Shown here one piece after another: positions 27,301 to 46,486 of a DNA stretch of 46,749 nt. The notes under the pieces are model-generated. The model searched no databases. It saw only the letters and a list, made by a program, of their open reading frames with translations, and was not told the DNA's origin. This DNA is from Nevskia sp. (GTDB taxonomy: Bacteria; Pseudomonadota; Gammaproteobacteria; Nevskiales; Nevskiaceae). The first letter of the stretch is position 1. Every line of letters begins with the position of its first letter. The DNA is taken from the NCBI GenBank assembly GCA_016779605.1, contig JADHNH010000016.1, forward strand, positions 1-46,749. The letters are read 5' to 3'. The translations under genes and the position numbers were made by a program.

Positions 27301-28200
27301 TCATGGTTCGCCGCCGTCCATCGGCGGCGCCTCGGGCATCGCGGCGAGCTGCGCGGCCAGCGCCTGCCTGCTCGCGGGCGATGCCGGGACCATGGGCAGG
27401 CGCACCTCCTCGCTGAAGCCGCGCTCCTCGCCTGCCAGCGCGGCCTTGATGACGCAGGGGTTGGGCTCGGCGAACAGGAGGCGGACGAGGGGCAGCAGGC
27501 GGTAGGACAATTCGCGCGCGTAGTCCCAGCGGCCGGCGCGGGCAGCCTCGTAGAGCGCCACGTACCAGCGCGGGCGGATGTGCGCGGCGGCGGCGATGGC
27601 ACCGCGGCCGCCCAGCGACAAGGTGGTGTAGATCAGGTGGTCGTCGCCGCTCAGCACGTCCAGCCGCGTGTCGCGGATCAGGTCCATCAGCTGGTCGATG
27701 TTGCCGCCGCTCTCCTTGATGGCGCGCACGTTGGCAAACTCGCACAAGGCCTGCACCGTTTCCAGTTCGATGTTGACGCCGGTGCGCAAAGGAATGTTGT
27801 AGAGCACCACCGGCAGCGGCGTGTGCGTGGCGATCTGCGCGAAATGGGCGCGGATGCCGGCTTGCGAGGGCCGCGTGTAGTACGGCGCCGCCACCAGCAG
27901 GCCGGCAAGCGGGCGCGTGTTGAGCGCCTCGAGCGCGTGCAGGGCCTTGCGCGTATCGTTGCCGCCGGTGCCCATCACCACGCCGCAGCGGCCTTGCGCC
28001 GCGTCCAGCACGGCGTCGAGCAGCCGCAGCTTTTCGGCTTCGTCCAGGGTGGCGGCTTCGCCGGTGGTACCGCAGACGACCAGCCCGTGGATGCCGGCCT
28101 CGGCATAGCGATGCACCAGGCGCCGCGCGGCGGGAAGGTCCAGGGCGCCGTCGCGGAACGGCGTGACCAGGGGCAACCAGATTCCTTCGAAACGTGTCAT
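27301..28200 (-). CDS. dapA: 4-hydroxy-tetrahydrodipicolinate synthase family protein
   Basis: The 299-residue (beta/alpha)8 product has the Schiff-base lysine K162 (A-I-K-E-S-G-G), the catalytic Tyr Y134 (V-L-Y-N-I-P-L-R-T-G) and C-G-T-T-G-E with T45/T46. DapA condenses pyruvate with aspartate semialdehyde in lysine and diaminopimelate synthesis. The N-acetylneuraminate lyase/DapA superfamily has members with other substrates, and no lysine gene adjoins, so the exact reaction is likely but not certain. The C-terminal Pro/Met-rich tail is slightly longer than usual. Confidence 0.82.
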   Translation of the reverse strand: MTRFEGIWLPLVTPFRDGALDLPAARRLVHRYAEAGIHGLVVCGTTGEAATLDEAEKLRLLDAVLDAAQGRCGVVMGTGGNDTRKALHALEALNTRPLAGLLVAAPYYTRPSQAGIRAHFAQIATHTPLPVVLYNIPLRTGVNIELETVQALCEFANVRAIKESGGNIDQLMDLIRDTRLDVLSGDDHLIYTTLSLGGRGAIAAAAHIRPRWYVALYEAARAGRWDYARELSYRLLPLVRLLFAEPNPCVIKAALAGEERGFSEEVRLPMVPASPASRQALAAQLAAMPEAPPMDGGEP

Positions 28201-30888: not shown

Positions 30889-32037
<1,149 letters not shown>

Positions 32038-32129: not shown

Positions 32130-32165
32130 CAAGTCGTCAACCCGGCAACTAGCTTGGAGGAGAGC

Positions 32166-33179
32166 ATGTCGGCGATGCAACCAGCGGAGCTGGCCGCGAG
32201 GCTGCGCCCGCTGATCGAGAAAGAGTGCGGCGCGGGATCGCAAGCCGCCAATGTCGGCGTGATGGAAGACGGCCATGCCGGCCTGACCTTCGGCTTCGAC
32301 GTGGTCGACGCCGGCGGCCGCAACATCGGCTCGTACGTGATCAAGCTGGCGCCCAGGGGCGTCACCCGCCGCGGCAACACCGACGTCTACCGCCAGGCGC
32401 CGCTGCTGCGCGCGCTCAAGGCCGCCGGCCTGCCGGTGCCCGCAGTGCCCTGGGCCTCGCCGGACGAGGACCTGCTGGGCACGCCGTTCATCGTGATGGA
32501 AAAGCTGCCCGGCCGCGTGTTCCTGGTGTGGGAGCCGCACGCAGTGTTCAAGCGCGACACCGAGTCGGTGCGCGACATCTGGCTGCAGACCGCGCGCCTG
32601 CTGGCGCGCTTCCACCAGGTCGACGCCGCCACCGTGCTGCGCGGCTGGGAGCAGCCGCGCGGCCTGCCCGAGGAGCTGGCGATCTGGCCCAACGTGATCA
32701 AGCACGCGCAGGACCCCGCCTGGCTCGCCGCCGGCACCGCCCTGGGCGAGCAGCTGCGCGCACGCATGCCGGACGGCCAGCCGGTGGGGCTGATCCACGG
32801 CGACTACCAGCCCGGCAACATCCTGTTCGAGAACGGCCGCGTGTCGGGCGTGATCGACTGGGAGCTGTCCTTCATCGGCGCGCAGGGCCTGGACCTGGGC
32901 TGGCTGATGATGATGTCCGACCCCGCCGCCTGGGACGCCTCGTTCCCGCCCACCGCGCCGCCCTCGCAGGCCGAGCTGGTGGACGCCTACCGTGCCGCCG
33001 GCGGCCCGGCCTGGCGCGACGTCGGCTGGTACCAGGCGATGGCGCAGTACCGCATGGGCTCGATCGCCTGCCTGAACGTCAAGCTGCACCGCACCGGCAA
33101 GCGCCACGACCCGCTGTGGGAGCGCTTCGCGCCGTCGATCGCCACGCTGTTCTCGCGCGGCAGCGAGCTGGTCGCCTGA
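32166..33179 (+). CDS. APH-like phosphotransferase (ACAD10/11 N-domain type)
   Basis: The 337-residue product has the aminoglycoside/choline kinase fold: E-K-L-P-G-R-V hinge, catalytic L-I-H-G-D-Y-Q-P-G-N-I-L and metal-binding V-I-D-W-E-L. Kinases of this type encoded beside an acyl-CoA dehydrogenase resemble the N-terminal domains of animal ACAD10/11, which phosphorylate 4-hydroxyacyl-CoA before dehydration and beta-oxidation. That role is inferred from context; it is not an antibiotic-resistance gene on this evidence. GGAGGAG precedes the ATG at 32166. The dehydrogenase starts 52 bp after its stop. Confidence 0.88.
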   Translation: MSAMQPAELAARLRPLIEKECGAGSQAANVGVMEDGHAGLTFGFDVVDAGGRNIGSYVIKLAPRGVTRRGNTDVYRQAPLLRALKAAGLPVPAVPWASPDEDLLGTPFIVMEKLPGRVFLVWEPHAVFKRDTESVRDIWLQTARLLARFHQVDAATVLRGWEQPRGLPEELAIWPNVIKHAQDPAWLAAGTALGEQLRARMPDGQPVGLIHGDYQPGNILFENGRVSGVIDWELSFIGAQGLDLGWLMMMSDPAAWDASFPPTAPPSQAELVDAYRAAGGPAWRDVGWYQAMAQYRMGSIACLNVKLHRTGKRHDPLWERFAPSIATLFSRGSELVA

Positions 33180-33230: not shown

Positions 33231-34433
33231 ATGATCGACTTTCAGCTTCCGGCCGAGCTGGTGGAGCTGCGCCAGCGGGTCGAGGAGTTCATCGCCGACA
33301 AGATCGTGCCGTTCGAGCGCGATCCGCGGCAGCGGCCGCACGGCGTGGACGAGTCGCTGCGGCGCGAGCTGGTGGCGCTGGGCCGGCAGGCCGGGCTGCT
33401 GTCGCCGCACGCGCCGAAGGAATACGGCGGCCTCGGCCTGGACCACCGCGGCATGGCGGTGGTTTTCGAAGCGGCCGGCTGGTCCACCCTGGGCGCGCTG
33501 GCGCTGAACATCCAGGCGCCGGACGAGGGCAACGTCAACCTGCTCAACCAGATCGCCACGCCGGAGCAGAAGGCGCGCTGGCTGGCGCCGCTGGTGCGCG
33601 GCGAGCTGCGCACCGTGTTCTCGATGACCGAGACCACCACCGACGGCGCCGGCGCGGACCCCTCGCTGCTCAAGACCGTCGCCCAGCAGGATACCGAGGG
33701 TTACCGCATCACCGGCCGCAAGTACATGATCTCCGGCGTGATCGACGCCGGCGTCAACATCGTCATGGCGCGCACGCTGGACCTGGGCGGGCGCGACCTC
33801 GGCGCCTCGATGTTCATGGTGGACATGGACGCGCCCGGCTTCAGCATCGTGCGCATGCTCGACACCATCGACACCAACACCGCCGGCGGCCACGCCGAGG
33901 TGCACTTCGAGGACGTGCGGGTGACGCCGGACCGCGTGCTCGGCGAGATCGGCCGCGGCTTCGCCAACGCGCAGGTGCGCCTGGGACCGGCCCGCCTGAC
34001 CCACTGCATGCGCTGGCTCGGCGCGGCGCGCCGCTGCCACGCCATCGCGGTGGAGCACGCCGGCCGCCGCCACTCGTTCGGCAAGACCCTGGGCGAGCAC
34101 CAGGGCGTGGGCTTCATGCTGGCCGACAACGAGATCGACCTGCACCTGTGCCGCCTGACCATCTGGCACGCCGCCTGGCTGCTGGACCAGCACCAGCGCG
34201 CCAGCAACGAAACCAGCATGAGCAAGGTGTTCTGTTCCGAGGCGCTCGGCCGCGTGGTGGACCGCTGCATGCAGATCCTCGGCGCGATCGGCATCACCGG
34301 CGACACCGTGATCGAACGCATTTACCGCGACATCCGGCCGTTCCGCATCTACGACGGCCCATCCGAAGTCCATCGCCACGCGCTCGCCCGACGCATCCTG
34401 TCGCGCCGCGCCAAAGCAGGAGACCACGCATGA
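33231..34433 (+). CDS. Acyl-CoA dehydrogenase, ACAD10/11-like
   Basis: The 400-residue product has the three-domain ACAD fold, with F-S-M-T-E-T-T-T-D-G-A-G-A-D-P and I-T-G-R-K-Y-M-I-S-G in the middle beta domain and I-L-G-A-I-G-I-T-G-D-T in the C-terminal helical domain. At the usual catalytic-base region it has Y-D375-G-P-S-E-V-H, with Asp in place of the common Glu; the same D-G-P-x-E-V-H form occurs in ACAD10/11-type enzymes. It oxidises an acyl-CoA to the 2-enoyl-CoA with FAD. A strong GAAGAAGGAGGAG precedes the ATG. Its stop overlaps the synthetase start (ATGA). Confidence 0.92.
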   Translation: MIDFQLPAELVELRQRVEEFIADKIVPFERDPRQRPHGVDESLRRELVALGRQAGLLSPHAPKEYGGLGLDHRGMAVVFEAAGWSTLGALALNIQAPDEGNVNLLNQIATPEQKARWLAPLVRGELRTVFSMTETTTDGAGADPSLLKTVAQQDTEGYRITGRKYMISGVIDAGVNIVMARTLDLGGRDLGASMFMVDMDAPGFSIVRMLDTIDTNTAGGHAEVHFEDVRVTPDRVLGEIGRGFANAQVRLGPARLTHCMRWLGAARRCHAIAVEHAGRRHSFGKTLGEHQGVGFMLADNEIDLHLCRLTIWHAAWLLDQHQRASNETSMSKVFCSEALGRVVDRCMQILGAIGITGDTVIERIYRDIRPFRIYDGPSEVHRHALARRILSRRAKAGDHA

Positions 34434-36091
34434 GCAACAACAGCATCCAGAAGCTGGGCAGCTACGAGGAGATCTACAAGGCGTTCCGCTGGAACATCCC
34501 GGCGCGCTACAACATCGCCAACGACGTCTGCGACCGCCACGCGGCGGCGCGCCCCGACGGCATCGCCCTGATCGGCGACGACCCGCGCGGCGGCACCTGG
34601 ACGATGAGCTTCCGGCAGATCCAGCGCCGCGCCAACCAGATGGCCAACATGCTGCTCGGCCTGGGCCTGAACCGCGGCGACCGCGTGATGCTGCTGCTGC
34701 CGCAGGACCCCTGGACCGCCATCGCCCACGTCGCCTGCTGGAAGGCCGGCCTGGTGTCGCTGCCGACCTCGGTGCTGTTCGGGCCGGACGCGGTGGCCTA
34801 CCGCCTGGACTTCGCCGGCGTGCGCGTGGTCATGACCGACCGCGCCAACCTCGACAAGGTGATGGAGGCGCGCACCAAGGCGCCGTCGGTCGAGCACATC
34901 TTCCTGGTCGACGGCGACGAGCCCGGCGCGGGCTCGCTGGAAAAGGCCGTGGACAAGGGCCGCGACAGCTTCACCAACGTCGACACCGCGGCCGACGACC
35001 CGGCGTTCTTCAACTTCACCTCCGGCACCACCGGCAACCCCAAGGGCGCGCTGCAGGCGCACCGCTCCATGCTCGGCCACCTGCCTGGCCTGGAGTTCAT
35101 CTACGACTTCTTCCCGCGGCCCAACGACGTGATCTGGTCGCCGGCCGACTGGGCCTGGCTGGCCGGCCTGATGGACGTGCTGATGCCGGCCTGGTACCAC
35201 GGCGTGCCGGTGGTGACGTTCCGCGGCCAGCGCTTCGACCCGGAGCAGGCCTGCGACCTGATGGGCCGCCACAAGGTCAACGTCGCCCTGCTCACCCCCA
35301 CCGCGCTGCGCATGATGCGGCAGATGAAGGACCCGCTGGCTTCCGGCATGCGCCTGCGCGTGGTGCTGTCGGGCGGCGAGTCGGTGGGCAAGGAGCTGCA
35401 CGAGTGGGCCAGCCAGGCGCTGAAGACGCCGATCAACGAGGGCTTCGGCCAGACCGAGTGCAACGTGGTGCTGGGCAACTGCGCCGGCGTCATGCCGATC
35501 AAGCCCGGCTCGCTGGGCCGGCCGATGCCCGGCCACGTCTGCGCCATCATCGACGACCAGGGCAACCCGGTGCCGGCCGGCACCATCGGCCACATCGCGG
35601 TCAAGCGGCCGGACCCGGTGATGATGATCGAGTACTGGCGCAACCCGAAGGCGACCCAGGAGAAGTACATCGGCGACTGGCTGATCACCGGCGACCTCGG
35701 CCACTGCGACGAGGAAGGCTACTTCTGGTACCAGAGCCGCGCCGACGACGTCATCACCAGCTCCGGCTACCGCATCGGGCCGTCCGAGATCGAGGACGCG
35801 CTGACGCGCCACCCGGCGGTGCTGCTGGCGGCCGCCATCGGCGTGCCGGACCCGCTGCGCACCGAGTCGATCAAGGCCTTCCTGGTGCTGCGCCAGGAGC
35901 ACAAGCCTTCGCCGGAGCTCGCCGCGCAGATCCAGGAGTTCGTGCGCAACCGCCTGGCCAAGCACGAGATGCCGCGCGAGATCGAGTTCGTCGCCTCGCT
36001 GCCGCTGACCACCACCGGCAAGGTGATGCGCCGCGAGCTGCGCGACGCCGAGCGCAAGAAGGCCGCGGCCAAGGCCGGCAAGCCCGGGTAA
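34430..36091 (+). CDS. Acyl-CoA synthetase (AMP-forming), medium-chain type
   Basis: The 553-residue product is an ANL-superfamily ligase. It has the phosphate loop F-T-S-G-T-T-G-N-P-K-G, Y/F-G-Q-T-E (N-E-G-F-G-Q-T-E-C-N), I-T-G-D-L-G-H, hinge region Y-Q-S-R-A-D-D-V-I-T-S-S-G-Y-R-I-G-P-S-E-I-E and the A10 lysine in L-T-T-T-G-K-V-M-R-R-E. It activates a carboxylic acid with ATP and CoA. The G-Y-R-I-G-P-S-E-I-E form is typical of medium-chain/ACSM-like enzymes. It is translationally coupled to the dehydrogenase and would supply its substrate. Confidence 0.92.
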   Translation: MSNNSIQKLGSYEEIYKAFRWNIPARYNIANDVCDRHAAARPDGIALIGDDPRGGTWTMSFRQIQRRANQMANMLLGLGLNRGDRVMLLLPQDPWTAIAHVACWKAGLVSLPTSVLFGPDAVAYRLDFAGVRVVMTDRANLDKVMEARTKAPSVEHIFLVDGDEPGAGSLEKAVDKGRDSFTNVDTAADDPAFFNFTSGTTGNPKGALQAHRSMLGHLPGLEFIYDFFPRPNDVIWSPADWAWLAGLMDVLMPAWYHGVPVVTFRGQRFDPEQACDLMGRHKVNVALLTPTALRMMRQMKDPLASGMRLRVVLSGGESVGKELHEWASQALKTPINEGFGQTECNVVLGNCAGVMPIKPGSLGRPMPGHVCAIIDDQGNPVPAGTIGHIAVKRPDPVMMIEYWRNPKATQEKYIGDWLITGDLGHCDEEGYFWYQSRADDVITSSGYRIGPSEIEDALTRHPAVLLAAAIGVPDPLRTESIKAFLVLRQEHKPSPELAAQIQEFVRNRLAKHEMPREIEFVASLPLTTTGKVMRRELRDAERKKAAAKAGKPG

Positions 36092-36165: not shown

Positions 36166-36283
36166 CCCTCTCCCTCCGGGAGAGGGGCTGGGGTGAGGGG
36201 CCGGCGGTTCGACAAGGTGCACTTCGTCGAACCGGCGGCCCCTCACCCGCGCCTATGGCGCGGCCTCTCCCGAGGGGAGAGGC
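36166..36283. repeat. Paired, inverted CTCTCCC repeat units
   Basis: The left unit starts with CCCTCTCCC/GGGAGAGGG at 36166-36186 and GGGTGAGGGG. A central GGTTCGAC/GTCGAACC stem (36207-36232) follows, then the inverted unit CCCCTCACCC and GGCCTCTCCC/GGGGAGAGGC to 36283. It fills most of the 253-bp gap between the synthetase and the transporter genes, in which I see no gene. Confidence 0.85.
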
Positions 36284-36344: not shown

Positions 36345-37346
36345 ATGACCGCGCAAAGCCGCGCCGCGCAGCCCGCGGCGCGCCGCTTCAAGCCCTCGCA
36401 GGAGCAGATCGTGTTCCTGGTGACGCTGGCGCTGGGGGTGGGCTTCGCGCTCACCCTGCCCGGCTTCGGCACCGTGTCCAACCTGCTGACCCTGACGCGC
36501 AGCGTGGCGATCCTGGGCATCCTGGGCATCGCCATGAGCGTGGTGGTGATCGGCCGCGGGCTGGACCTGTCGCTGGTGGCCTCGATGGCGGTGACCTCGG
36601 CCTTCACCCTGCAGCTGCTGCAGCGCGGCTGGCCGACGCCGGCGGCGCTGGGCCTGGCGCTGGCGCTGGCGGTGCTGATCGGCGTGGCCAACGGCTTCAT
36701 CATCGCCTTCGTCGAGGTGCCGGCGCTGTTCACCACGCTGGCCACCGGCTTCCTGGTGTTCGGCCTGGGCCGCGTGTTCCTGCTCGACGGCGTCATCACC
36801 TACCTGCCGGACCGCGCCGGCGGCCTGGCCTGGGTCGGCCAGGGCAGCCTGGCCGGGGTGCCGGCGCCGGTGCTGGCGTTCGCGCTGGCGGCGCTGGCGG
36901 TGCACCTGCTGATGTCGCGCACCGCCGTCGGCCGCTTCATCTACGCCCACGGCGACAACGCCGAGGCGGCGCGCCTGACCGGCATCGCGGTGCGGCCGCT
37001 GACCATGGCCGAGTACGCGCTGTCCTCGACCATCGGCTTCGCCGCCGGGCTGGTGATGGCGGCGTCCACCGCCAGCATGAACACGCAGGTGATCAACTCC
37101 ACCCTGATCTTCGACGTGATCCTGGTGGTGGTGCTGGGCGGCGTCAGCCTGGTCGGCGGGCGCGGCAGCGTGATCAGCGTGCTGGCGGGCACCGCGCTGA
37201 TCGGCACGCTGCTCAACGGCATGACCATCCTGGACCTCGACAACAACGTGCAGAACATCGTCAAGGGCGGCGTGCTGCTGGGCGCGATCATGCTGGACAA
37301 CCGCCTGCATCCGCGCGACGAGGAAACCGCGCGCCAGGGCGACTGA
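36345..37346 (+). CDS. RbsC-type ABC transporter permease (importer, stand-alone)
   Basis: The 333-residue product has about ten membrane segments and the conserved sugar-permease elements: G-R-G-L-D-L-S-L-V-A-S-M, A-H-G-D-N-A-E-A-A-R-L-T-G-I-A-V (ATPase-coupling loop) and V-L-G-G-V-S-L-V-G-G-R-G-S. It forms half of an inner-membrane channel of the ribose/monosaccharide family; the fused permease downstream is probably the other half. GGGAG precedes the ATG. It is the first gene of the transporter block and is followed 27 bp later by the first binding protein. Confidence 0.92.
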   Translation: MTAQSRAAQPAARRFKPSQEQIVFLVTLALGVGFALTLPGFGTVSNLLTLTRSVAILGILGIAMSVVVIGRGLDLSLVASMAVTSAFTLQLLQRGWPTPAALGLALALAVLIGVANGFIIAFVEVPALFTTLATGFLVFGLGRVFLLDGVITYLPDRAGGLAWVGQGSLAGVPAPVLAFALAALAVHLLMSRTAVGRFIYAHGDNAEAARLTGIAVRPLTMAEYALSSTIGFAAGLVMAASTASMNTQVINSTLIFDVILVVVLGGVSLVGGRGSVISVLAGTALIGTLLNGMTILDLDNNVQNIVKGGVLLGAIMLDNRLHPRDEETARQGD

Positions 37347-37373: not shown

Positions 37374-38543
37374 GTGAAGCCTTGCATCGACAATCCGGCG
37401 GCCCCGGCGCGCGGCGCCGCGCGCCGCTGGCTGGCCGCGGCGGCCTGCGCATTCGTGCTGTGCGCCTGCGGCGGCGGCTCGTCCGGCCAGGGCGGCGGCC
37501 AAGCCGGGGGGCAGGCCGGGAGCGGTGCCGCGCCGCCGCCGGCTGCGGCCGCCGCGCCGGCGCCGGACCTGAGCGGCGCCGACAGCTCGGCCGCGCTGCA
37601 GGCGCACGCGGAGGGCGCGCTCAAGGGCAAGACCATCGCCTGGGTGCCGCTGGCGATGGGCCTGCCGCTGACCGAGATCTGGACCCGGGTGATGCGCGAG
37701 GAGGCGCAGGCGCGCGGCATGCGGCTGGAAGTGCGCGACCCCAACTGGAACACCACCGCCGCGCTGCAGGCGCTGTCCGCGCTGATCGGCGAGAAGCCGG
37801 CACTGATCGTGGTGCACAACCCCAACGTCCAGCTCTACGCCAAGGAGCTCAAGCGCGCCGAGGAAGCCGGCATCCCGGTGATCCAGGTCAACATGGTGTC
37901 GAACTACAAGACCGCCGCCTACATCGGGCCCGACTGGCACGAGGTGGGCCGGCTGCTGGCCGACGAGATCATCCACCAGTGCGGCGGCGGCAGCGGCCAG
38001 TCGGGCAAGGTGTCGATCGTGCAGGGCGAGCAGACCTCCGGCGTGTCGATCGAGCAGATGGAGGGCCTGAGCGCGGAGCTGGCCACCGACAAGGCGATCC
38101 AGGTGGTGTCGAGCCAGGCCGCCAACTGGGACACCACCAAGGCGCACGACATCACCGCCACCGTGCTGCAGCAGCACCCGGACCTGTGCGCCAGCGTCGG
38201 CTTCTGGAGCGGCATGGAGATCGGCGCGGCCGAGGCGATCAAGTCCGCCGGCAAGCTCGGCCAGGTCAAGGTCTACGCCTCCGGCGGCGAGGGCAAGGTC
38301 GACTGCCAGAACGTCGACAACGGCCTGCTGACCAAGGTGCTCAGCTACGACGCGCCGGACCAGGCCAAGGCGGTGATCCAGGTCGCCAGCTTCATCCTGC
38401 AGTCGGGCGCCAGGCCAGACGCCTTCCGTGCCGCCAATTATTCCACCCTGCACTGGATGGAGAAGGGCAAGTACGACCCGGCGCTGTGCTACGACTGGAA
38501 CAACCAATGGCGCGACTATGCCGACAGCGCGCCGGGGCAATGA
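37374..38543 (+). CDS. Periplasmic binding protein (lipoprotein) of RbsB-like type
   Basis: The 389-residue product starts with GTG and has a lipoprotein signal ending L-C-A-C, predicting lipidated C32. A Gly/Ala/Pro linker and a two-lobe type-1 binding domain follow (K-T-I-A-W-V-P-L-A-M-G ... T-E-I-W-T-R-V-M-R-E-E-A-Q-A-R-G, V-H-N-P-N-V, G-I-P-V-I-Q-V-N-M-V-S-N). Four Cys after the signal (Q-C-G-G-G, D-L-C-A-S, V-D-C-Q-N, A-L-C-Y-D) are shared with the next gene and may form two disulfides. It would present the ligand to the permeases. Its closest relative here is the adjacent paralogue. Confidence 0.9.
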   Translation: MKPCIDNPAAPARGAARRWLAAAACAFVLCACGGGSSGQGGGQAGGQAGSGAAPPPAAAAAPAPDLSGADSSAALQAHAEGALKGKTIAWVPLAMGLPLTEIWTRVMREEAQARGMRLEVRDPNWNTTAALQALSALIGEKPALIVVHNPNVQLYAKELKRAEEAGIPVIQVNMVSNYKTAAYIGPDWHEVGRLLADEIIHQCGGGSGQSGKVSIVQGEQTSGVSIEQMEGLSAELATDKAIQVVSSQAANWDTTKAHDITATVLQQHPDLCASVGFWSGMEIGAAEAIKSAGKLGQVKVYASGGEGKVDCQNVDNGLLTKVLSYDAPDQAKAVIQVASFILQSGARPDAFRAANYSTLHWMEKGKYDPALCYDWNNQWRDYADSAPGQ

Positions 38544-38544
38544 A

Positions 38545-39558
38545 ATGCTGAAGACCACTCGCTGCGCCGCCGCCGCGCTGGCCCTGGCGTTCGCCGCCGC
38601 CGCCGACCCGCCGGCCGGCTTGAGCGGCGCCAACAGCTCGGCCGAGCTGAACGCGCACGCGCTGGCCTCGCTCAAGGGCAAGACGGTGGCCTGGCTGCCG
38701 GTCAACATGGGCGTTCCGCTCACCGAGATCTGGACCAAGGTGATGCGCGAAGAGGCGCAGGCGCGCGGCATGAAGCTGGTCATGCGCGACCCCAACTTCA
38801 GCACCACCGCCGGCCTGCAGGCGCTGTCGTCCCTGATCGGCGACAAGCCGGACCTGCTGGTGGTGCACAACCCCAACGTCCAGCTCTACGCCAAGGAACT
38901 GAAGCGCGCCGAGGAAGCCGGCATCCCGGTGATCCAGGTCAACATGGTGTCGAACTACAAGACCGCCGCCTATATCGGCCCGGACTGGAACGCGGTGGGA
39001 CGCCTGCTCGGCCAGGAAGTGATCCGCCAGTGCGGCAGCGGCAGCGGCAAGTCCGGCAAGGTCTCGGTGATCCAGGGCGAGCTGACCTCCGGCGTTTCGA
39101 TCGGCCAGATGGAGGGCCTGAACGCGGCCTTCGCCAAGGACCCGTCGATCCGCGTGGTCTCCAGCCAGGCCGGCAACTGGGACGCCAACAAGGCGCACGA
39201 CATCACCGCCACGGTGCTGCAGCAGCACCCGGACCTGTGCGCCAGCGTCGGCTTCTGGAGCACCATGGAGATCGGCGCCGCGCAGGCGATCAAGTCCGCC
39301 GGCAAGCTCGGGCAGGTGAAAGTCTACGCCTCCGGCGGCGAGGGCAAGGTCGACTGCGAGAACGTCGACAGCGGCCTCATCACCAAGGTGCTGAGCTACG
39401 ACGCGCCGGACCAGGCCAAGGCGATCATCCAGGTCGGCAGCTTCATCCTGCAGTCGGGCGCCAGGCCCGACGCGTTCCGCGTGGCCAACTTCTCCACCCT
39501 GCACTGGATGGAGAAGGGCAAGTACGACCCGGCGCTGTGCTACGACTGGACCCTGTAG
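38545..39558 (+). CDS. Periplasmic binding protein, tandem paralogue without lipobox
   Basis: The 337-residue product is strikingly similar to the preceding protein over the whole binding domain, with long stretches identical even in DNA. It has a plain Sec signal (M-L-K-T-T-R-C-A-A-A-A-L-A-L-A-F-A-A-A-A-D) and lacks the Gly-rich linker and lipidation Cys. So one copy is membrane-anchored and this one should be free in the periplasm. The four domain cysteines are kept. Its ATG is one base after the previous stop. Ligand-pocket differences between the two are candidates for split specificity. Confidence 0.9.
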   Translation: MLKTTRCAAAALALAFAAAADPPAGLSGANSSAELNAHALASLKGKTVAWLPVNMGVPLTEIWTKVMREEAQARGMKLVMRDPNFSTTAGLQALSSLIGDKPDLLVVHNPNVQLYAKELKRAEEAGIPVIQVNMVSNYKTAAYIGPDWNAVGRLLGQEVIRQCGSGSGKSGKVSVIQGELTSGVSIGQMEGLNAAFAKDPSIRVVSSQAGNWDANKAHDITATVLQQHPDLCASVGFWSTMEIGAAQAIKSAGKLGQVKVYASGGEGKVDCENVDSGLITKVLSYDAPDQAKAIIQVGSFILQSGARPDAFRVANFSTLHWMEKGKYDPALCYDWTL

Positions 39559-39597
39559 TCCGGCAACCAGGCAAGACAAGGTGAGGAGACGCTTCAA

Positions 39598-41754
39598 GTG
39601 AGCAGCGGCGTGCGCTACAACGGGGCCCTGATGAGCGGCGGCATCGCGCGCCGGCTCTACCACCGCTGGTCCTTGCGGCTGTTCCTGTCGGAGCTGCTGG
39701 CCAAGCGCTGGATGGAACCGGCGATCCCGTTCGTGCTGATGCTGGCGCTGATCGCCTACTTCGGCGCGGTGACGCCCAACTACGCCACCTGGGGCAACGC
39801 GCGCCAGCTCGGCCGCGAGTTCGCCGAGATGGGCTTCGTCGTCATCGCCATGGCGCTGGTGGTGATCTCCGGCGGCATCGACCTGAGCGTGGGCTCGGTG
39901 TTCGCCTTCGCCAACCTGACCGCGCTGGGGCTGTTCCAGATCGGCCAGCTGCCGGTGCTGCCGGTGATCGCCGGCACGCTGGCCGCGGGCGCGGCCGTGG
40001 GCGCGGTCAACGGCGTGCTGGTCGGCTACTTCAAGACGCGGCCGTTCCTCACCACGCTGGTCACCCTGATCATCCTGCGCGCGGTGGTGGACCTGCTGTC
40101 GCAGCACTACTCGGTGCAGCTGGCGATGGGCAGCAACACCTCGGCGCTGTGGGACTTCCTCGGCGGCGGCGCGCTGCTCGGCATCCCGTCGAACCTGCTG
40201 GTACTGGGCATCGTCGGCGGCGTCGGCCACGTCCTGCTGAGCCGCTCGCGGCCGGGCTGGCACCTCACCGCCATCGGCTCCAGCCGCAAGGCCGCGCGCC
40301 ATGCCGGCATCGCGGTGGAGAGCACGCTGTGCCTGACCTACGTCGCCTCGGGCATGCTGGCCGCCGCCGGCGGGCTGTTCTACGCCGCGCGCCTGTCCAG
40401 CACCGGCTCCGACACCGGCGTCGGCTGGGAGGTGAACGCGCTGACCGCCGCGGTGCTGGGCGGCGTCAGCCTGTCGGGCGGGCGTGGCACGGTGGCGCGC
40501 GCAGTGATCGGCGCGGTGATCGTGTTCGTGCTGGTCAACGGCCTGGTGCGCATGGGCTTCCCCGGCGCGCTGACCTCCACCGCGCTGGGCGCCGTGCTGC
40601 TGTTCGCCGTCGGCGTGGACGTGAAGTGGGCCAAGAACCGCGTCAAGGCGATCCAGAAGATCTACCTCAACCCGACCGTGGTGGAGCTGCCGCCGGCGCC
40701 GTCGACCGCGCGCGACAGCGGCACGCCGTTCGCCGAGAACGACCGCCTGCGCGACTCCGAGGAGATCGGCCTGGACCAGGTGGAAGGCCCCGAGGACGTG
40801 ATCCTGGACCGCCAGGACCGCCTCTACTGCGGCACCCGCGACGGCCTGATCCTGCGCTTCTCCGGCCCGCGCTTCGAGCAGCGCGAGGTGTTCGCCCGCA
40901 TCGGCGGCCGCCCGCTGGGCATGGCCTTCGACCGCGACGAGAACCTGCTGGTGTGCGTCGGCGGCATGGGCCTGTACGGGGTGACGCCGCAGGGCAAGGT
41001 CTACAAGGCCACCGACGAGACCAACCGCAGCTGGTTCAAGCTCAACGACGACTCGCGCCTGCGCCTGGCCGACGACCTCGACATCGCGCCCGACGGCAAG
41101 ATTTATTTCAGCGAGGCGACCATCCGCTACGAGATGCATTCCTGGCACCTCGACGGCATGGAAGGCCGCGCCAACGGCCGCCTGATCTGCTACGACCCGG
41201 CGACCCGGCGCACCCGCACGGTGATCAAGGACATCGTCTTCCCCAACGGCGTTTGCGTGGCGCACGACGGCCAGTCGCTGCTGTTCGCCTCGACCTGGCT
41301 GTGCTCGATCTTCCGCTACTGGATCGACGGGCCGAAGAAGGGAAAGATCGAGACCCTGATCGACAACCTGCCCGGCTACACCGACAACATCAACCGCGCC
41401 TCCGACGGCTGCTACTGGCTGGCGCTGGTCGGCATCCGCTCGCCGGCCTTCGACCTCGCCATGCGCAACCCGGGCTTCCGCCTGCGCATGGTCAAGCAGA
41501 TCCCGCCGGACGAATGGATCCTGCCGGGCATCAACAACGGCTGCGTGCTCAAGTTCAACGAAAAGGGCGAGGTGCTGGAGTCGCTGTGGGATCCGGGCGG
41601 CCGCAAGCACGCCACGCTCACCTCGATGCGCGAGCACAAGGGCTGGCTCTACCTCGGCGGCCTGGAAAACAACCGCATCGGCCGCATCCGCCTGCCGGAC
41701 GCCGACCCCGACTGGAACGGCTTCGACGACTACTGGCGCAAGGGCAAGGCCTGA
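39598..41754 (+). CDS. ABC permease (RbsC-type) fused to C-terminal SMP-30/strictosidine-synthase-like beta-propeller
   Basis: The 718-residue product starts with GTG after AGGTGAGGAG. Residues 1-350 are a sugar-type permease (I-S-G-G-I-D-L-S-V-G-S-V-F-A near 90; V-L-G-G-V-S-L-S-G-G-R-G-T near 295). After a linker (about 352-392), residues 393-715 form a propeller with E396 (V-E-G-P-E-D-V), N550 (F-P-N-G-V) and D596 (G-Y-T-D-N-I), equivalent to the metal ligands of SMP-30 lactonases. No stop or frame break separates them. RbsC-type permeases usually have both ends in the cytoplasm, so the propeller should sit at the inner mouth of the channel. Confidence 0.9.
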   Translation: MSSGVRYNGALMSGGIARRLYHRWSLRLFLSELLAKRWMEPAIPFVLMLALIAYFGAVTPNYATWGNARQLGREFAEMGFVVIAMALVVISGGIDLSVGSVFAFANLTALGLFQIGQLPVLPVIAGTLAAGAAVGAVNGVLVGYFKTRPFLTTLVTLIILRAVVDLLSQHYSVQLAMGSNTSALWDFLGGGALLGIPSNLLVLGIVGGVGHVLLSRSRPGWHLTAIGSSRKAARHAGIAVESTLCLTYVASGMLAAAGGLFYAARLSSTGSDTGVGWEVNALTAAVLGGVSLSGGRGTVARAVIGAVIVFVLVNGLVRMGFPGALTSTALGAVLLFAVGVDVKWAKNRVKAIQKIYLNPTVVELPPAPSTARDSGTPFAENDRLRDSEEIGLDQVEGPEDVILDRQDRLYCGTRDGLILRFSGPRFEQREVFARIGGRPLGMAFDRDENLLVCVGGMGLYGVTPQGKVYKATDETNRSWFKLNDDSRLRLADDLDIAPDGKIYFSEATIRYEMHSWHLDGMEGRANGRLICYDPATRRTRTVIKDIVFPNGVCVAHDGQSLLFASTWLCSIFRYWIDGPKKGKIETLIDNLPGYTDNINRASDGCYWLALVGIRSPAFDLAMRNPGFRLRMVKQIPPDEWILPGINNGCVLKFNEKGEVLESLWDPGGRKHATLTSMREHKGWLYLGGLENNRIGRIRLPDADPDWNGFDDYWRKGKA

Positions 41755-41756
41755 TC

Positions 41757-42887
41757 ATGCTGTTCGAACACGTACTGTCGGACCTGAAGTTCATCCTGTT
41801 CCCCGAGCGCGAGGCGGACCAGGCGCTGCCGGTGATGGACGGCCCGTGGACCCCGAACCGCCGGCTCGACGAGGCGCAGCCGGTCGGCGAGGACATCCCC
41901 GGCTGCGACGACATCGCGGCCGGCGGCGACGGCGGCATCTTCGTCTCCGCCGGCCGCCAGGTGCTGGCGCTGTCAGGCGCGGGCCTGGCGCAGCGCCGCG
42001 TGCATGCCACCTTCGAGCAGGAGGTCGGCGCGCTGGCGGCGGCGGCGGACGGAACGCTGTATGCGGGGCTGGACGGCGCCGGCGTGGTGCGCCTGGACCC
42101 GCAGGGGCGCGCAACCGCGCGCCTGCAGGCCGCCGACGGCCGGCCGCTGCGCTGCCCCACCGCGCTGGCGCTGCTGCCCGACGGGCGGCTGGCGATCGCC
42201 GAAGGCTCGGCCGACAACACCGCGCAGCGCTGGTGCCACGACCTGATGGAGAAGCGCGCGTCCGGCCGCCTGCTGGTGGCCGACGCCGACCTGTCCGGCG
42301 CCGTCACCATCCTCGACGGCCTGGCCTGGCCGGCGGGGCTGCTGGTGCAGGACCGGCAGCTGTGGTTCAGCGAGAGCTGGCGCCACCGCGTGCAGGCGCT
42401 GCCGCTGCCGCTGAACGCCGGCGCGCAGCCGCAGCCGCTGGCGCGCAACCTGCCGGGCTACCCGGCGCGCCTGTCGCCCGACGGCGCCGGCGGCGCCTGG
42501 CTGGCGCTGTTCGCCGCGCGCACCCACCTGGTGGAGCTGGTGCTGCGCGAGCGCAAGTTCCGCCAGGAGATGCTCGCCGGCGTCGACCCGCATTTCTGGA
42601 TCGCGCCGAGCCTGCACGCCACCGGCCACTACCTGGAGCCGCTGCAGGGCGGCGCGCTGAAGAAGCTCGGCATGATGAAGCCCTGGGCGCCGCCGCGCTC
42701 GTACGGCCTGGTGGCGCACCTCGCCGCCGACGGCGCCTGCAGCGCCAGCCTGCACAGCCGCGCCGGCGGCCTGCACCACGGCATCACCGCCGCCCGCGTG
42801 CACGGCGGCCGCCTGCTCGCCGCGTCCAAGGGCGGCAGCCGGCTGCTCGACCTGGGCGCCGCCGCCGCGCCGGAGGCCGCGCCATGA
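41757..42887 (+). CDS. Stand-alone SMP-30-like beta-propeller with altered metal site
   Basis: The 376-residue product begins two bases after the fused permease gene and lacks a signal peptide. It follows the same order of segments as the fused propeller (H-D-L-M-E-K-R-A-S-G-R-L-L, L-P-G-Y, E-R-K-F-R-Q-E-M-L, a late repeat of blades), so it is a diverged paralogue. Where the fused copy has F-P-N-G and G-Y-T-D-N, this one has W-P-A193-G and G-Y-P-A237-R, removing both expected metal ligands. It is probably not a metal-dependent lactonase; it may be a binding subunit or use another mechanism. Its stop overlaps the ATPase start (ATGA). Confidence 0.82.
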   Translation: MLFEHVLSDLKFILFPEREADQALPVMDGPWTPNRRLDEAQPVGEDIPGCDDIAAGGDGGIFVSAGRQVLALSGAGLAQRRVHATFEQEVGALAAAADGTLYAGLDGAGVVRLDPQGRATARLQAADGRPLRCPTALALLPDGRLAIAEGSADNTAQRWCHDLMEKRASGRLLVADADLSGAVTILDGLAWPAGLLVQDRQLWFSESWRHRVQALPLPLNAGAQPQPLARNLPGYPARLSPDGAGGAWLALFAARTHLVELVLRERKFRQEMLAGVDPHFWIAPSLHATGHYLEPLQGGALKKLGMMKPWAPPRSYGLVAHLAADGACSASLHSRAGGLHHGITAARVHGGRLLAASKGGSRLLDLGAAAAPEAAP

Positions 42888-44398
42888 GCACCCGGCAGGA
42901 TGCGGCGCCGTTCCTGCGCATCGAGCAAGGCACCAAGGCCTACGCCGGCGTCAACGTGCTGCAGGACGTCGACTTCGACCTGCGCGCGGGCGAGGTGCAC
43001 GCCCTGGTCGGCGAGAACGGCGCCGGCAAGTCCACCCTGTGCAAGGCCATCGCCGGCGCCATCGAGCTGAGCGGCGGGCGCTACCTGGTGGACGGCAGGC
43101 CGGTGCGCTTCGCCCGCCCCGGCGAGGCGCTCAAGGCCGGCATCTCGATGGTCTACCAGGAAACCAGCCTGGTGCCGACGATGACGGTGGCGCAGAACAT
43201 CGAGCTGGGCCACGAGAAGCTGATCACGCGCTTCCGCTCGCTCAACATCAAGGCGCAGCAGCTGCTGCAGTCGCTGCGCTTCCACGTGGACCCGGCGGTG
43301 CTGGTCAGCGCCCTGGGCACCGCGCAGCGACAGATGGTGGAGATCGCCCGCGCGGCGCACCACAAGGCGCGCGCGATCATCTTCGACGAGCCCACCGCCA
43401 GCCTGACGCCGGAGGAAAAGCTCAACTTCTTCCAGCTCATCCGCGACCTGCGCGGCCAGGGCCTGGGCATCATCTTCATCAGCCACGCGCTGGAAGAGGC
43501 GCTGGAGCTGGCCGACCGCGTCACCGTGCTGCGCGACGGCCGCCACGTGGTGACGGCCGCCGCCGCCGAGCTGACGCGCGAGCAGCTGGTGCGGCACATG
43601 GTCGGCCGCGAGGTGGAAAAGACCCACTACGCGCGCGGCGTGCACCACGCCGCCGGCACGCGCCGCGAAAAGGTGCTGAGCGTGGAAAACCTGACCATGG
43701 GCAACACCGTCAAGAACATGTCGTTCACGCTGTACGCCGGCGAGGTGGTGGGCATCGCCGGCCTGATCGGCTCGGGCCGCACCGAGGCCGCCAAGATCGT
43801 GGCCGGCGCGCTCAAGCGCAACCTGATCCGCGGCGGCTCGGTGTTCCTGCGCGGCCGCGCGGTGCGCTACCGCGTGCCCAAGCAGGCGATCAACGACGGC
43901 ATCGCCTACATCACCGAGGACCGCAAGCTCAACGGCTTCTTCGAGACGATGACGGTGGAGGAGAACATCTACCTCGGCCACCTCGCCACGCGGCGCGGCT
44001 TCCGCTTCCTGGTGTCGGCGCGCGACCGGCGCGGCGTGGCCGGCCGCTTCATCGAGCGGCTGCAGGTGCGCGCGGCGAGCGCGCGGGCAAAGATCGTCGA
44101 GCTGTCCGGCGGCAACCAGCAGAAGGTGGTGGTGGCCAAGTCGCTGGTGCAGGAGCCGGAGGTGATCTTCTTCGACGAGCCGACCCGCGGCGTCGACGTC
44201 GGCGCCATCCCGGAGATCCACCAGGCGATCCGCCGGCTCGCCGCCGAGGGCAAGACGGTGTGCGTGATCTCCTCCTACCTGCCGGAGGTGCTGGCGGTGG
44301 CCGACCGCATCCTGGTGGCCCGCCAGGGCCGCATCGCCGAGGAGTTCTCGGCGCAGGACGCCACCGAGGACAAGATCATGTTCGCGGCGATCCACTGA
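42884..44398 (+). CDS. Sugar-type ABC transporter ATP-binding protein (two NBDs)
   Basis: The 504-residue product has two ATPase domains, as in RbsA/MglA. The first has Walker A G-E-N-G-A-G-K-S-T (43-51), I-I-F-D-E-P-T-A-S-L and signature L-G-T-A-Q-R-Q, lacking the canonical LSGGQ. The second has the degenerate Walker A G-L-I-G-S-G-R-T-E usual in this family, a full signature L-S-G-G-N-Q-Q-K-V and F-F-D-E-P-T-R-G-V-D-V-G-A. It powers import through the two permeases. It overlaps the propeller gene and the TetR gene starts two bases after its stop. Confidence 0.94.
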   Translation: MSTRQDAAPFLRIEQGTKAYAGVNVLQDVDFDLRAGEVHALVGENGAGKSTLCKAIAGAIELSGGRYLVDGRPVRFARPGEALKAGISMVYQETSLVPTMTVAQNIELGHEKLITRFRSLNIKAQQLLQSLRFHVDPAVLVSALGTAQRQMVEIARAAHHKARAIIFDEPTASLTPEEKLNFFQLIRDLRGQGLGIIFISHALEEALELADRVTVLRDGRHVVTAAAAELTREQLVRHMVGREVEKTHYARGVHHAAGTRREKVLSVENLTMGNTVKNMSFTLYAGEVVGIAGLIGSGRTEAAKIVAGALKRNLIRGGSVFLRGRAVRYRVPKQAINDGIAYITEDRKLNGFFETMTVEENIYLGHLATRRGFRFLVSARDRRGVAGRFIERLQVRAASARAKIVELSGGNQQKVVVAKSLVQEPEVIFFDEPTRGVDVGAIPEIHQAIRRLAAEGKTVCVISSYLPEVLAVADRILVARQGRIAEEFSAQDATEDKIMFAAIH

Positions 44399-44400
44399 CC

Positions 44401-45075
44401 ATGAAGCACTCGGCCAAGTCGGGCGGCGGCAACGGCAGCGGCAAGCCGGCGCGGGTGTCGCGCCACCCGGCCTTCGACCGCGACGACCAGTTCCAGCGCC
44501 GGCGCCTGGCGATGCTGGAAACCGCCATCCACTTCTTCAACCGCAGCGGCTTCCACGCCACCTCGATGGAGGCCATCGCCACCCAGCTCGGCCTGACCAA
44601 GGGCACGCTGTACCACTACTACGAAAGCAAGCTGCAGCTGCTCTACGAATGCATGCTGCACTCGGTGGAGGAAGGCCGCGTGGTGGCGCTGCAGGCGCAG
44701 GACGAGGGCGGCAGCGGCGCGCAGAAGCTGGAGCGCTTCCTGCGCCTGCAGTTCCGCACCCTGGCCGGGCACAGCGGCTCGTCGTGGATCTTCGCCGACA
44801 TCTCGGCCCTGCCCGCCGAGGAGTACGCCGAGGTGCGGCGCCGCCAGCGCGTGGTGGACCAGCTGGTGCAGCAGTTCATCGCGCAGGGCGTGGCCGACGG
44901 CAGCCTGGAGGCGACCAACCCCAAGATCGCCGAGTTTTTCCTGATGGGCGCGCTCAACTGGCTGCCGCGCTGGTTCCGGCCGGAAGGCCCGATGACCAGC
45001 GAAGAGCTGGCCGATATCTTCATCCGCATGGTGTTCGACGGCGTGCGCGCCAAGCCTGGCGCCGCCGGCGGCTGA
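44401..45075 (+). CDS. TetR family regulator, KstR2-like C-terminal domain
   Basis: The 224-residue product has a Gly/Lys-rich N-terminus and a TetR helix-turn-helix at about 35-80 (M-L-E-T-A-I-H-F-F-N-R-S-G-F-H-A-T-S-M-E-A-I-A, L-T-K-G-T-L-Y-H-Y-Y). Its C-terminal half (R-R-R-Q-R-V-V-D-Q ... G-A-L-N-W-L-P-R-W-F-R-P-E-G) resembles the ligand domain of KstR2 and related acyl-CoA-sensing repressors. It is inside the transporter operon, so it likely autoregulates it. A candidate target is the CAAAC-N4-GTTTG site at 32088-32103. Confidence 0.88.
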   Translation: MKHSAKSGGGNGSGKPARVSRHPAFDRDDQFQRRRLAMLETAIHFFNRSGFHATSMEAIATQLGLTKGTLYHYYESKLQLLYECMLHSVEEGRVVALQAQDEGGSGAQKLERFLRLQFRTLAGHSGSSWIFADISALPAEEYAEVRRRQRVVDQLVQQFIAQGVADGSLEATNPKIAEFFLMGALNWLPRWFRPEGPMTSEELADIFIRMVFDGVRAKPGAAGG

Positions 45076-45112
45076 CGGGCGGCAGCGCCCGGCAATTACC
45101 GAGGAAGTGCAC

Positions 45113-46228
45113 ATGGCACAGCAGCAGAGAAGGAAGATCCTGATCGCCGGCGCGCTGGGCCTCACCGGCCGCGCCGCCATCCGCCACTTCGAAAGCCGCG
45201 GCTGGGAGGTGGTCGGCCTGTCGCGGCGCACGCCGGCGCAGGCGTACCGCGACGATTTCCAGTCCAGGGCGCAGTTCATCGCCGTGGACCTGCGCGACCC
45301 GGCGGACTGCAAGGCCAAGCTGGCGGCGCTGACCGACGTCACCCACGCGGTCTACGCCGCGGTCTACGAGACCAGCGACCTGAAGGGCGGCTGGACCCAG
45401 GGCACCGAGGATTTCGTCGGCACCAACGTGCAGATGCTGCGCAACTTCCTGGATGCGCTGCTGCCCGCGGCCGGGGACCTGCAGCAGATGACGGTGTTCC
45501 AGGGCGCCAAGGCCTACGGCGCCCACACCGGCCAGATGAAGCTGCCCGCCAAGGAGACCGACCCGCGGGTGATCTCCATCGGCTTCTACACGCCGCAGGA
45601 GGAGCTGCTGCGCGCACGCCAGAAGGGCGCGCGCTGGACCTGGACCATCGTGCGGCCGCAGATGATCTCCGGCTTCGCCACCGGCGCGCCGATTTCCTGC
45701 CTGCCGGGCGTGGGCGTGTACGCCGCCGTGTGCCGCGAGCTGGGCCTGCCGCTGCGCTTCACCGGCCGCGCCGACGGGCCGCTGGAGGCGGTGGACGTGG
45801 CGCTGCTGGCCAAGGCGCTGGAATGGGCCGCGACCAACTCCAGCTGCGCCAACCAGATCTACAACATCGCCAACGGCGACTGCTTCTGCTGGCCCAACGC
45901 GTTCCGCCGCATCGCCGACGAGGTGTTCGGCATGGAGCTGGCGCCGGCGCACACCGACTACCTGGCGGTGGTGATGGCCGACAAGGCGCCGCTGTGGGAC
46001 GAGATCGTGCGCAAGTACGACCTGCGCCGCTACGCGATGAGCGAGATCGTCGCCTCCTGGCAGATCGTCGACTTCTTCCTCGACTACGGCGACCGCAACC
46101 GCCTGTCCCTCCTGTCCACCATCAAGGCGCGCAAGCACGGCTTCCTGGAATGCGAGGACAGCGAGGATATGGTGGTGCGGCAGCTCAAGGAGATGCAGGC
46201 GGACCGCATCCTGCCGCCGCGGCAGTAA
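45113..46228 (+). CDS. PRISE-type atypical SDR (progesterone 5-beta-reductase/iridoid synthase-like)
   Basis: The 371-residue product has the extended-SDR cofactor motif variant (I-A-G-A-L-G-L-T-G-R-A), Y-A-A-V-Y-E, Q-G-A-K133-A-Y, F-Y159-T160-P-Q-E-E-L-L, W-T-W-T-I-V-R-P-Q-M-I-S-G-F-A-T-G and late Y-D-L-R-R-Y. These place it in the VEP1/PRISE family, which reduces the double bond of 1,4-enones with NADPH. The second Tyr of the usual F-Y-Y motif, counted as catalytic with the Lys, appears to be Thr here. GAGGAA precedes the ATG at 45113. As last gene of the run it suggests a cyclic enone (steroid or terpenoid) substrate. Confidence 0.85.
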   Translation: MAQQQRRKILIAGALGLTGRAAIRHFESRGWEVVGLSRRTPAQAYRDDFQSRAQFIAVDLRDPADCKAKLAALTDVTHAVYAAVYETSDLKGGWTQGTEDFVGTNVQMLRNFLDALLPAAGDLQQMTVFQGAKAYGAHTGQMKLPAKETDPRVISIGFYTPQEELLRARQKGARWTWTIVRPQMISGFATGAPISCLPGVGVYAAVCRELGLPLRFTGRADGPLEAVDVALLAKALEWAATNSSCANQIYNIANGDCFCWPNAFRRIADEVFGMELAPAHTDYLAVVMADKAPLWDEIVRKYDLRRYAMSEIVASWQIVDFFLDYGDRNRLSLLSTIKARKHGFLECEDSEDMVVRQLKEMQADRILPPRQ

Positions 46229-46242
46229 TTCCAGGAAAAAAG

Positions 46243-46486
46243 CCCTCTCCCTCTGCGGGAGAGGGTTGGGTGAGGGGGCGCGTTTAGGCGATGACTCGAT
46301 GTCATCGCCTGCGGCCCCGATGAATTCGCCGAGAGCCCCGTATTTCAATAGTGGGCACGCGAGCGAAGCGAGTCCGAAGGACGCACCCCAGGATGGGGTG
46401 CGCAACGCCCGGCCAGGGATGGCCGGGCCGGGCGTTCCGGTAACCACGGAGCCTCGCCAGGGATGGCTGCGGTAAACATACAAGGG
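46243..46486. repeat. CTCTCCC unit plus multi-hairpin dispersed repeat, copy B
   Basis: GCCCTCTCCC/GGGAGAGGG and GGGTGAGGGG (46243-46280) lead into the repeat at 46281-46486, a same-orientation copy of 25571-25774. Stems: 46287-46309 (GGCGATGAC/GTCATCGCC), 46372-46382, 46383-46401 and 46404-46436. From 46487 to 46615 I see only a degenerate inverted CTCTCCC unit (about 46531-46562) and the start of the IS. Confidence 0.85.

Follow-up and report, generated by a model that had tools for sequence, protein, structure and literature searches.

The window, i.e. the whole 46,749-nucleotide stretch of Nevskia sp. DNA that we analysed, carries on its forward strand a transport module with the order permease, binding protein, permease–propeller fusion, second propeller and ATPase, together with genes for acid activation and a regulator. 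Its features are as follows:

32154–33179, + strand: APH-type kinase (LvaA/ACAD11-kinase-like), proposed 4-hydroxyacyl-CoA kinase (Pfam APH, E 1.9e-33)
33231–34433, + strand: acyl-CoA dehydrogenase family protein with the ACAD11/LvaC signature, proposed 4-phosphoacyl-CoA eliminase (PDB match and motifs)
34430–36091, + strand: acyl-CoA ligase, AMP-binding (Pfam AMP-binding, E 5.9e-77 on the longer frame)
36345–37346, + strand: unfused RbsC-type permease, the partner subunit (Pfam BPD_transp_2, E 4.5e-28)
37374–38543, + strand: periplasmic binding protein 1 (Pfam Peripla_BP_4, E 7.4e-41)
38545–39558, + strand: periplasmic binding protein 2, a tandem copy (Pfam Peripla_BP_4, E 4.4e-41)
39598–41754, + strand: permease–propeller fusion, 718 codons (frame check, Pfam, AlphaFold model)
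39829–40611, + strand: permease domain of the fusion, residues 78–338 (Pfam BPD_transp_2)
40627–40740, + strand: linker stretch of the fusion, residues 344–381, of nearly constant length
40720–41748, + strand: six-bladed strictosidine-synthase-like (SSL) propeller of the fusion, residues 375–717 (fold match, ligand alignment)
40792, 41071, 41245 and 41383, + strand: metal-site codons of the fusion for E399, D492, N550 and D596 respectively (joint alignment)
41757–42887, + strand: second, separate propeller (SSL2) without a metal site (alignment, structure prediction)
42884–44398, + strand: RbsA-type double ATPase (two ABC_tran stretches, E 7.7e-50)
44401–45075, + strand: TetR-family regulator (Pfam TetR_N and TetR_C_24)
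45107–46228, + strand: PRISE-like short-chain reductase (Pfam PRISE, E 2.9e-12, above cut-off)

A BPD_transp_2 permease, a Peripla_BP_4 binding protein and a double ATPase thus stand in one operon, as in importers of the RbsABC type. The unfused and fused permeases are 29.5% identical, and the second propeller begins two bases past the stop of the fusion. The two binding proteins of the window (37374–39558) are 82% identical over 315 residues; a related operon (L112) and most other loci have a single copy. The PRISE-like reductase accompanies the operon both in the window and in L112 (near 4017), at different positions. PRISE is the family of iridoid synthase and progesterone 5-beta-reductase, and the presence of this gene may point to a lactone that is unsaturated or terpenoid. 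After the CoA ligase and ahead of the first permease, a 34-nt inverted repeat without spacer, 85% complementary, lies at 36186–36253, and a 17-nt inverted repeat at 46401–46439; both are possibly REP-like elements. Upstream, on the minus strand, a DHDPS-family protein (27304–28200) and a family III CoA transferase (30889–32037) are perhaps part of another acid-degradation operon.

Reading frame and distribution of the fusion

The fused gene is a single open frame with a GTG start and no internal stop. The sequence GGTGAGGAG at 39580–39588 suits this GTG; an alternative ATG at 39631 agrees with the length of homologues and may, judging by the sequence, be the true start. Pfam recognizes both halves above gathering score, with BPD_transp_2 at residues 78–338 (E 3e-28) in the N-terminal half, and SSL_N at 377–421 (E 2e-15), Str_synth at 492–578 (E 3.4e-21) and SGL at 439–612 (E 5.3e-11) in the C-terminal half. 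An earlier note on this DNA had claimed a 718-codon frame joining a complete RbsC-type permease to a propeller, and this is borne out by the open frame, the Pfam matches in both halves and the intact copies found elsewhere. Since 62 of 62 copies, the window included, are uninterrupted, an artefact of frame or sequencing is ruled out. The genome of the window has one fusion, the remaining two matches being the adjoining permease and the adjoining propeller.

These 62 copies comprise the window, 47 further loci and 14 copies from a draw of Pseudomonadota genomes, so that the two-domain order, for which the earlier note had proposed a database search, is recurrent, and its taxonomic spread covers Pseudomonadota plus two Actinomycetota (Amycolatopsis deserti and a Mycobacteriaceae bacterium). 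The draw, which was made evenly, gave full-length fusions in ten of 299 genomes (that of the window included) with 15 copies, none of them with a stop; the 14 copies other than the window were all distinct from the earlier set, with nearest identities of 61–99%. Fifteen plasmid records match the fusion query over 80% or more of its length. Ten were inspected (two from Shinella and one each from Celeribacter, Paraburkholderia, a Paracoccaceae bacterium, Rhizobium, Paracoccus, Sulfitobacter, Pantoea and Salipiger), and in all ten the permease, binding protein, fusion and second propeller are present, with the ATPase next as an annotated gene in nine and as an open frame in Salipiger, where the end of the record truncates it. 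Among the best 80 loci of a scan of species genomes, 37 hold the fusion or part of one, including loci from Bradyrhizobium, Mesorhizobium, Variovorax and Yersinia proxima. For alignments we used a set of 48 fusions, i.e. the window, the relative L095 and the plasmid and scan loci, excluding L049, in which a contig edge inside the propeller leaves the fusion not judgeable.

All five module genes keep the same order wherever the contig reaches; L027, L028, L032, L040 and L045 (the last cut at the permease end) are truncated at contig edges and have their remaining genes in order. L123 has an additional RbsC-type permease and ATPase immediately upstream of its module. The stop of the fusion overlaps the start of the second propeller in 40 of 47 loci, and the junction after the second propeller is overlapping in 32 of 44. 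The earlier note had also considered that homologues might always be split into two genes; we looked for such pairs and found none in the 43 more distant loci (L052–L094), where permease-only and propeller-only genes do not occur together. In a search of 41 relatives, the fusion was present in none of the 17 other genomes of the genus and in one of seven others of the family (76% identical). This patchy spread, together with 60% identity between the fusion of the window and an Amycolatopsis protein, suggests horizontal transfer.

Predicted structure and metal sites of the two propellers

An AlphaFold model of the fusion, built from 35 sequences, had a mean pLDDT of 86.1 and a pTM of 0.70. Residues 375–717 matched TGW6 best (Z 35.3, rmsd 2.4 over 279 residues), and TGW6 also matches by sequence (E 7.6e-27); strictosidine synthases followed with Z of about 34 and DFPase with about 30, and the lactonases RPA3624 (29.5), Drp35 (28.7) and PON1 (28.4) all ranked below TGW6 and the strictosidine synthases. 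A viral structure library gave weak, generic propeller matches only. Propellers filled the match lists, so these fold searches scarcely probed the permease half, which, searched alone against the PDB by sequence, had no match at E 0.01. Both in sequence (Str_synth/SSL_N) and in its six-bladed fold the propeller half is strictosidine-synthase-like, and it was this branch, not SMP-30 itself, that lay nearest. Because TGW6 and strictosidine synthases outrank lactonases, esters, glucosides or other chemistry are possible.

For topology, helices were taken from the model, sides were assigned by alternation and Lys+Arg counts were averaged over the 48 sequences. The N-terminus (4.10), two inside loops (1.85 and 3.75) and the C-terminus (4.71) are rich in these residues, the five outside loops have means of 0.04–0.23, and two short motif loops placed inside by alternation have 0.00 (residues 91–97) and 1.00 (288–297). 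These loop charges favour a cytoplasmic propeller with both permease termini inside, as the earlier note had expected, and disfavour a periplasmic one.

The metal site was assessed at the positions of E399, D492, N550 and D596 in a joint alignment of 48 fused propellers, 49 second ones and 12 free SSLs, counting Glu or Asp at the first position and Asn or Asp at the other three as ligand-capable. All four positions were capable in 47 of 48 fused propellers (the window included) and in all 12 free SSLs, but in none of the 49 second propellers. Among the fused propellers E399 and D596 are invariant, D492 is Asp in 36 and Asn in 12, and N550 is kept in 47 of 48; a later fetch of 15 loci, in which L112 was L095 again, had the four positions kept in 15 of 15 fused copies. 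Of the ligands that had been claimed from the sequence (E396, N550 and D596), the last two stand. E396, however, is not conserved (34 Glu, 12 Asp, one Val and one Gln of 48) and gives way to E399, which is in register with relatives, and D492 had been missed. The neighbouring D493 is invariant too, but alignment to TGW6 puts D492 at the ligand position. The sole exception among the 48, L043, is the most divergent fusion, on a long branch, with Gly in place of N550, and its propeller is possibly losing activity. According to passages of PMC4215206, four metal ligands are retained in most SSL proteins, which are more likely to be hydrolases than condensing enzymes. Judged by its sequence, the fused propeller has an intact metal site of the hydrolase type.

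Free SSLs also occur near other genes. One on a Pseudomonas aeruginosa plasmid (L014, 5905–6966), strongly similar to the fused propeller, lies near purine-degradation genes, and free SSL genes of the genus and family of the window (L097–L100) adjoin frames weakly matching CoA ligases (24–26%).

The second propeller is likewise predicted to be six-bladed (pLDDT 90.4; TGW6 match with Z 33.3), and at most two of the four ligand positions are kept in the 49 sequences and in the 15-locus fetch. The E399 position is Asp in 41 of 49, the D492 position Thr in 35, the N550 position Asn in only six, and the D596 position Ala, Gly or Ser in all 49; the residue after D596 is Asn in 48 of 48 fused propellers and Arg in 48 of 49 second ones. 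There was no support for an amphipathic membrane helix at the N-terminus of the second propeller (mean z 0.64 over 29 sequences). A quick tree was made of 60 propellers, with 24 fused and 24 second ones chosen as a subset of the 48 and 49 and 12 free ones as the root. A single branch separated each group from the rest, and the fused propellers stood with the second ones against the free ones (SH-aLRT 97). In the simplest history, a propeller would have entered the module once and been duplicated once, with a single loss of the metal site. The metal-less propeller probably assists the fused one without catalysis of its own, in a structural or product-sensing role. The fused propeller described in the earlier note is real, but the ligand-less propeller beside it and the five-gene module had been overlooked.

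The stretch between the two halves of the fusion (residues 344–381 in the window) has 34–37 residues in all 48 sequences, and 37 in 34 of them. Such a near-constant linker would fit a gating domain too. As a regulator or sensor, the propeller would control the importer by binding substrate or product on the cytoplasmic side, with catalysis incidental or absent, and the second propeller shows that a propeller without a metal site has a role in this module. Conservation of all four ligand positions in 47 of 48 fused propellers, however, goes beyond the needs of plain binding, and we consider a purely regulatory propeller improbable. The same linker also bears on a different alternative, in which the propeller is a true hydrolase that is merely tethered, so that the fusion determines its quantity and location while hydrolysis stays uncoupled from the channel. 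Fusion, stop–start overlaps and operon structure would all serve stoichiometry, and the AlphaFold model is silent on the orientation of the propeller to the channel; yet the constancy of the linker and the lack of any split version among the 43 more distant loci speak against it, leaving simple tethering a serious, if unlikely, explanation.

Neighbouring pathways and candidate substrates

The kinase of the window has an APH-type fold with the catalytic motifs HGDYQPGN and DWE, and the ACAD11 kinase is among its six PDB matches (8.7e-11). The dehydrogenase has ACAD11 as its best PDB match (E 1.1e-54) and carries the LvaC/ACAD10/11 signature, with an HCMR motif, an Arg upstream of it and, as the base, an Asp in place of the usual Glu. 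According to passages of PMC12440821, ACAD10/11 and bacterial LvaC use these Arg, HCMR and Asp residues on 4-phosphoacyl-CoA; the 4-hydroxy-acid pathway of LvaA/LvaC and ACAD10/11 is also treated in parts of PMC11342911, and passages of both papers describe 4-hydroxy acids prepared by lactone opening. In L112 the kinase, the dehydrogenase (HCSR with Arg and Asp), the PRISE-like reductase and the ligase are kept, and a Sulfitobacter locus (L010) has a phosphotransferase, a ligase and a dehydrogenase with HCMR. The signature was present in three of ten adjoining dehydrogenases (the window, L010 and L112), two of these three coming from related operons, with six lacking it and one too short. Because of the ligase, the kinase and the ACAD11/LvaC-type neighbour, the substrate in the window is most likely a gamma-lactone or 4-hydroxy acid.

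A different set of neighbours occurs elsewhere. A degradative HMG-CoA reductase, above the NCBIfam cut-off, adjoins the module in Shinella (L004, where it shares one base with the permease gene), Mesorhizobium (L022) and a Rhizobiaceae metagenome-assembled genome (L033). HMG-CoA lyase is above cut-off in L022 and L033, and L119 has both enzymes by BLAST label; in the tree L022 is not grouped with L004 and L033. Near the module the reductase was found in four of 62 loci compared with none of 43 unmatched control loci, a difference that could be due to chance. In this branch the substrate would be mevalonolactone or mevalonate. Mevalonate and 4-hydroxy acids have in common that they cyclize, to six- and five-membered lactones respectively. 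The genome of the window has a degradative HMG-CoA reductase elsewhere (G000:C1:37357-38511; L111 and L127), above the family cut-off and without a second fusion.

We compared neighbours at 1e-12 between the 37 scan loci (L015–L051) and the 43 unmatched controls, with labels assigned by BLAST against a small library built from annotated fused loci, which favours fused loci and in which unlabelled genes are not absent genes. The counts were two compared with none for HMG-CoA reductase, three and none for HMG-CoA lyase (that of L015 being isolated, on the opposite strand and without a reductase label), seven and none for CoA ligase, three and none for acyl-CoA dehydrogenase, six and none for aldehyde dehydrogenase, and three and four for zinc alcohol dehydrogenase. 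Other branches have zinc alcohol and aldehyde dehydrogenases or carboxymuconolactone-decarboxylase-family genes (one clade, 12 rows), and at most loci the neighbours are other than 4-hydroxy-acid or mevalonate genes. A single substrate for the whole class was rejected, as neighbours differ by clade.

The lactone idea of the earlier note thus holds in that some neighbour pathways fit lactone-forming substrates, although the 4-hydroxy-acid genes had gone unnoticed. The propeller might instead be a metal hydrolase of another kind, acting on an ester, a glucoside conjugate or a phosphotriester, with a substrate that is not a lactone. TGW6 is its nearest solved structure and the N6P/SSL superfamily is chemically diverse, as set out in passages of PMC4215206; on the other hand, two unrelated neighbour kits, for degradation of 4-hydroxy acids and of mevalonate, have lactone-forming substrates in common, which makes this alternative rather unlikely.

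Proposed mechanism and comparison with known systems

We lean modestly towards an importer of lactones or hydroxy acids in which an attached cytoplasmic metal hydrolase opens the ring on entry, beside a metal-less partner. The RbsABC-type importer would bring in lactones, or hydroxy acids in equilibrium with them, and the propeller beneath the permease, on the cytoplasmic side, would hydrolyse the arriving lactone or ester to a charged hydroxy acid and so trap it. This acid would, in the window, be handed over to CoA activation, with the ligase joining it to CoA, the APH-type kinase phosphorylating the 4-hydroxyl and the ACAD11/LvaC-type enzyme then yielding the enoyl-CoA. That the propeller faces the exit of the channel and couples transport to ring opening, as the earlier note proposed, is an inference beyond what the sequence shows. 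A more specific proposal, in which transport and metal-dependent hydrolysis would be united in a single machine across a widespread class of ABC importers, with the active and the dedicated inactive propeller as an asymmetric pair under the channel that takes the lactone from the translocation path and opens it before release, thereby pulling uptake, is speculative and should be regarded as unlikely on present evidence.

If the coupling is real, the module would exemplify an ABC importer in which chemistry at the channel exit traps what has been taken up, and the pairing of an active, permease-borne propeller with a metal-less neighbour would provide an internal comparison. If the proposal is correct, the transported substrate could be guessed from neighbouring genes and tested in culturable soil bacteria. 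The conserved fusion of importer and enzyme suggests a food molecule processed during cell entry, and it offers a hypothesis for proteins now labelled by one half, as ‘SMP-30/gluconolactonase/LRE family protein’ or ‘ABC transporter permease’.

The module shares its permease family (BPD_transp_2), Peripla_BP_4 binding protein and double ATPase with RbsABC-type sugar importers, but differs in having two different permeases, one with a C-terminal propeller, plus an extra lone propeller; matches to the NCBIfam sugar permease models were far below cut-offs. Fusions of carbonic anhydrase to SulP anion transporters are comparable in that a permease is joined to an enzyme for the species that it transports, although both the transporter class and the enzyme are different here. 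The six-bladed fold and four ligand positions are those of SSL/N6P hydrolases such as RPA3624, Drp35, PON1 and DFPase, whereas here the propeller is attached to an ABC permease and its role as a hydrolase is predicted from sequence. A Deinococcus Cu/Zn-SOD is naturally fused to a beta-propeller lactonase, as reported in passages of PMC12362111, and there too a propeller is joined to another functional domain, but the partner is a soluble enzyme and not a transporter. The kinase and dehydrogenase of the window carry the diagnostic residues of the LvaA/LvaC and ACAD10/11 pathway but are associated with an importer that has a propeller of its own, whereas passages of PMC12440821 and PMC11342911 mention no such transporter. 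We found no description of a permease–propeller fusion among the matches listed in the open-access literature (PMC). The parts come from known families, and their combination with a metal-less partner appears new within that literature.
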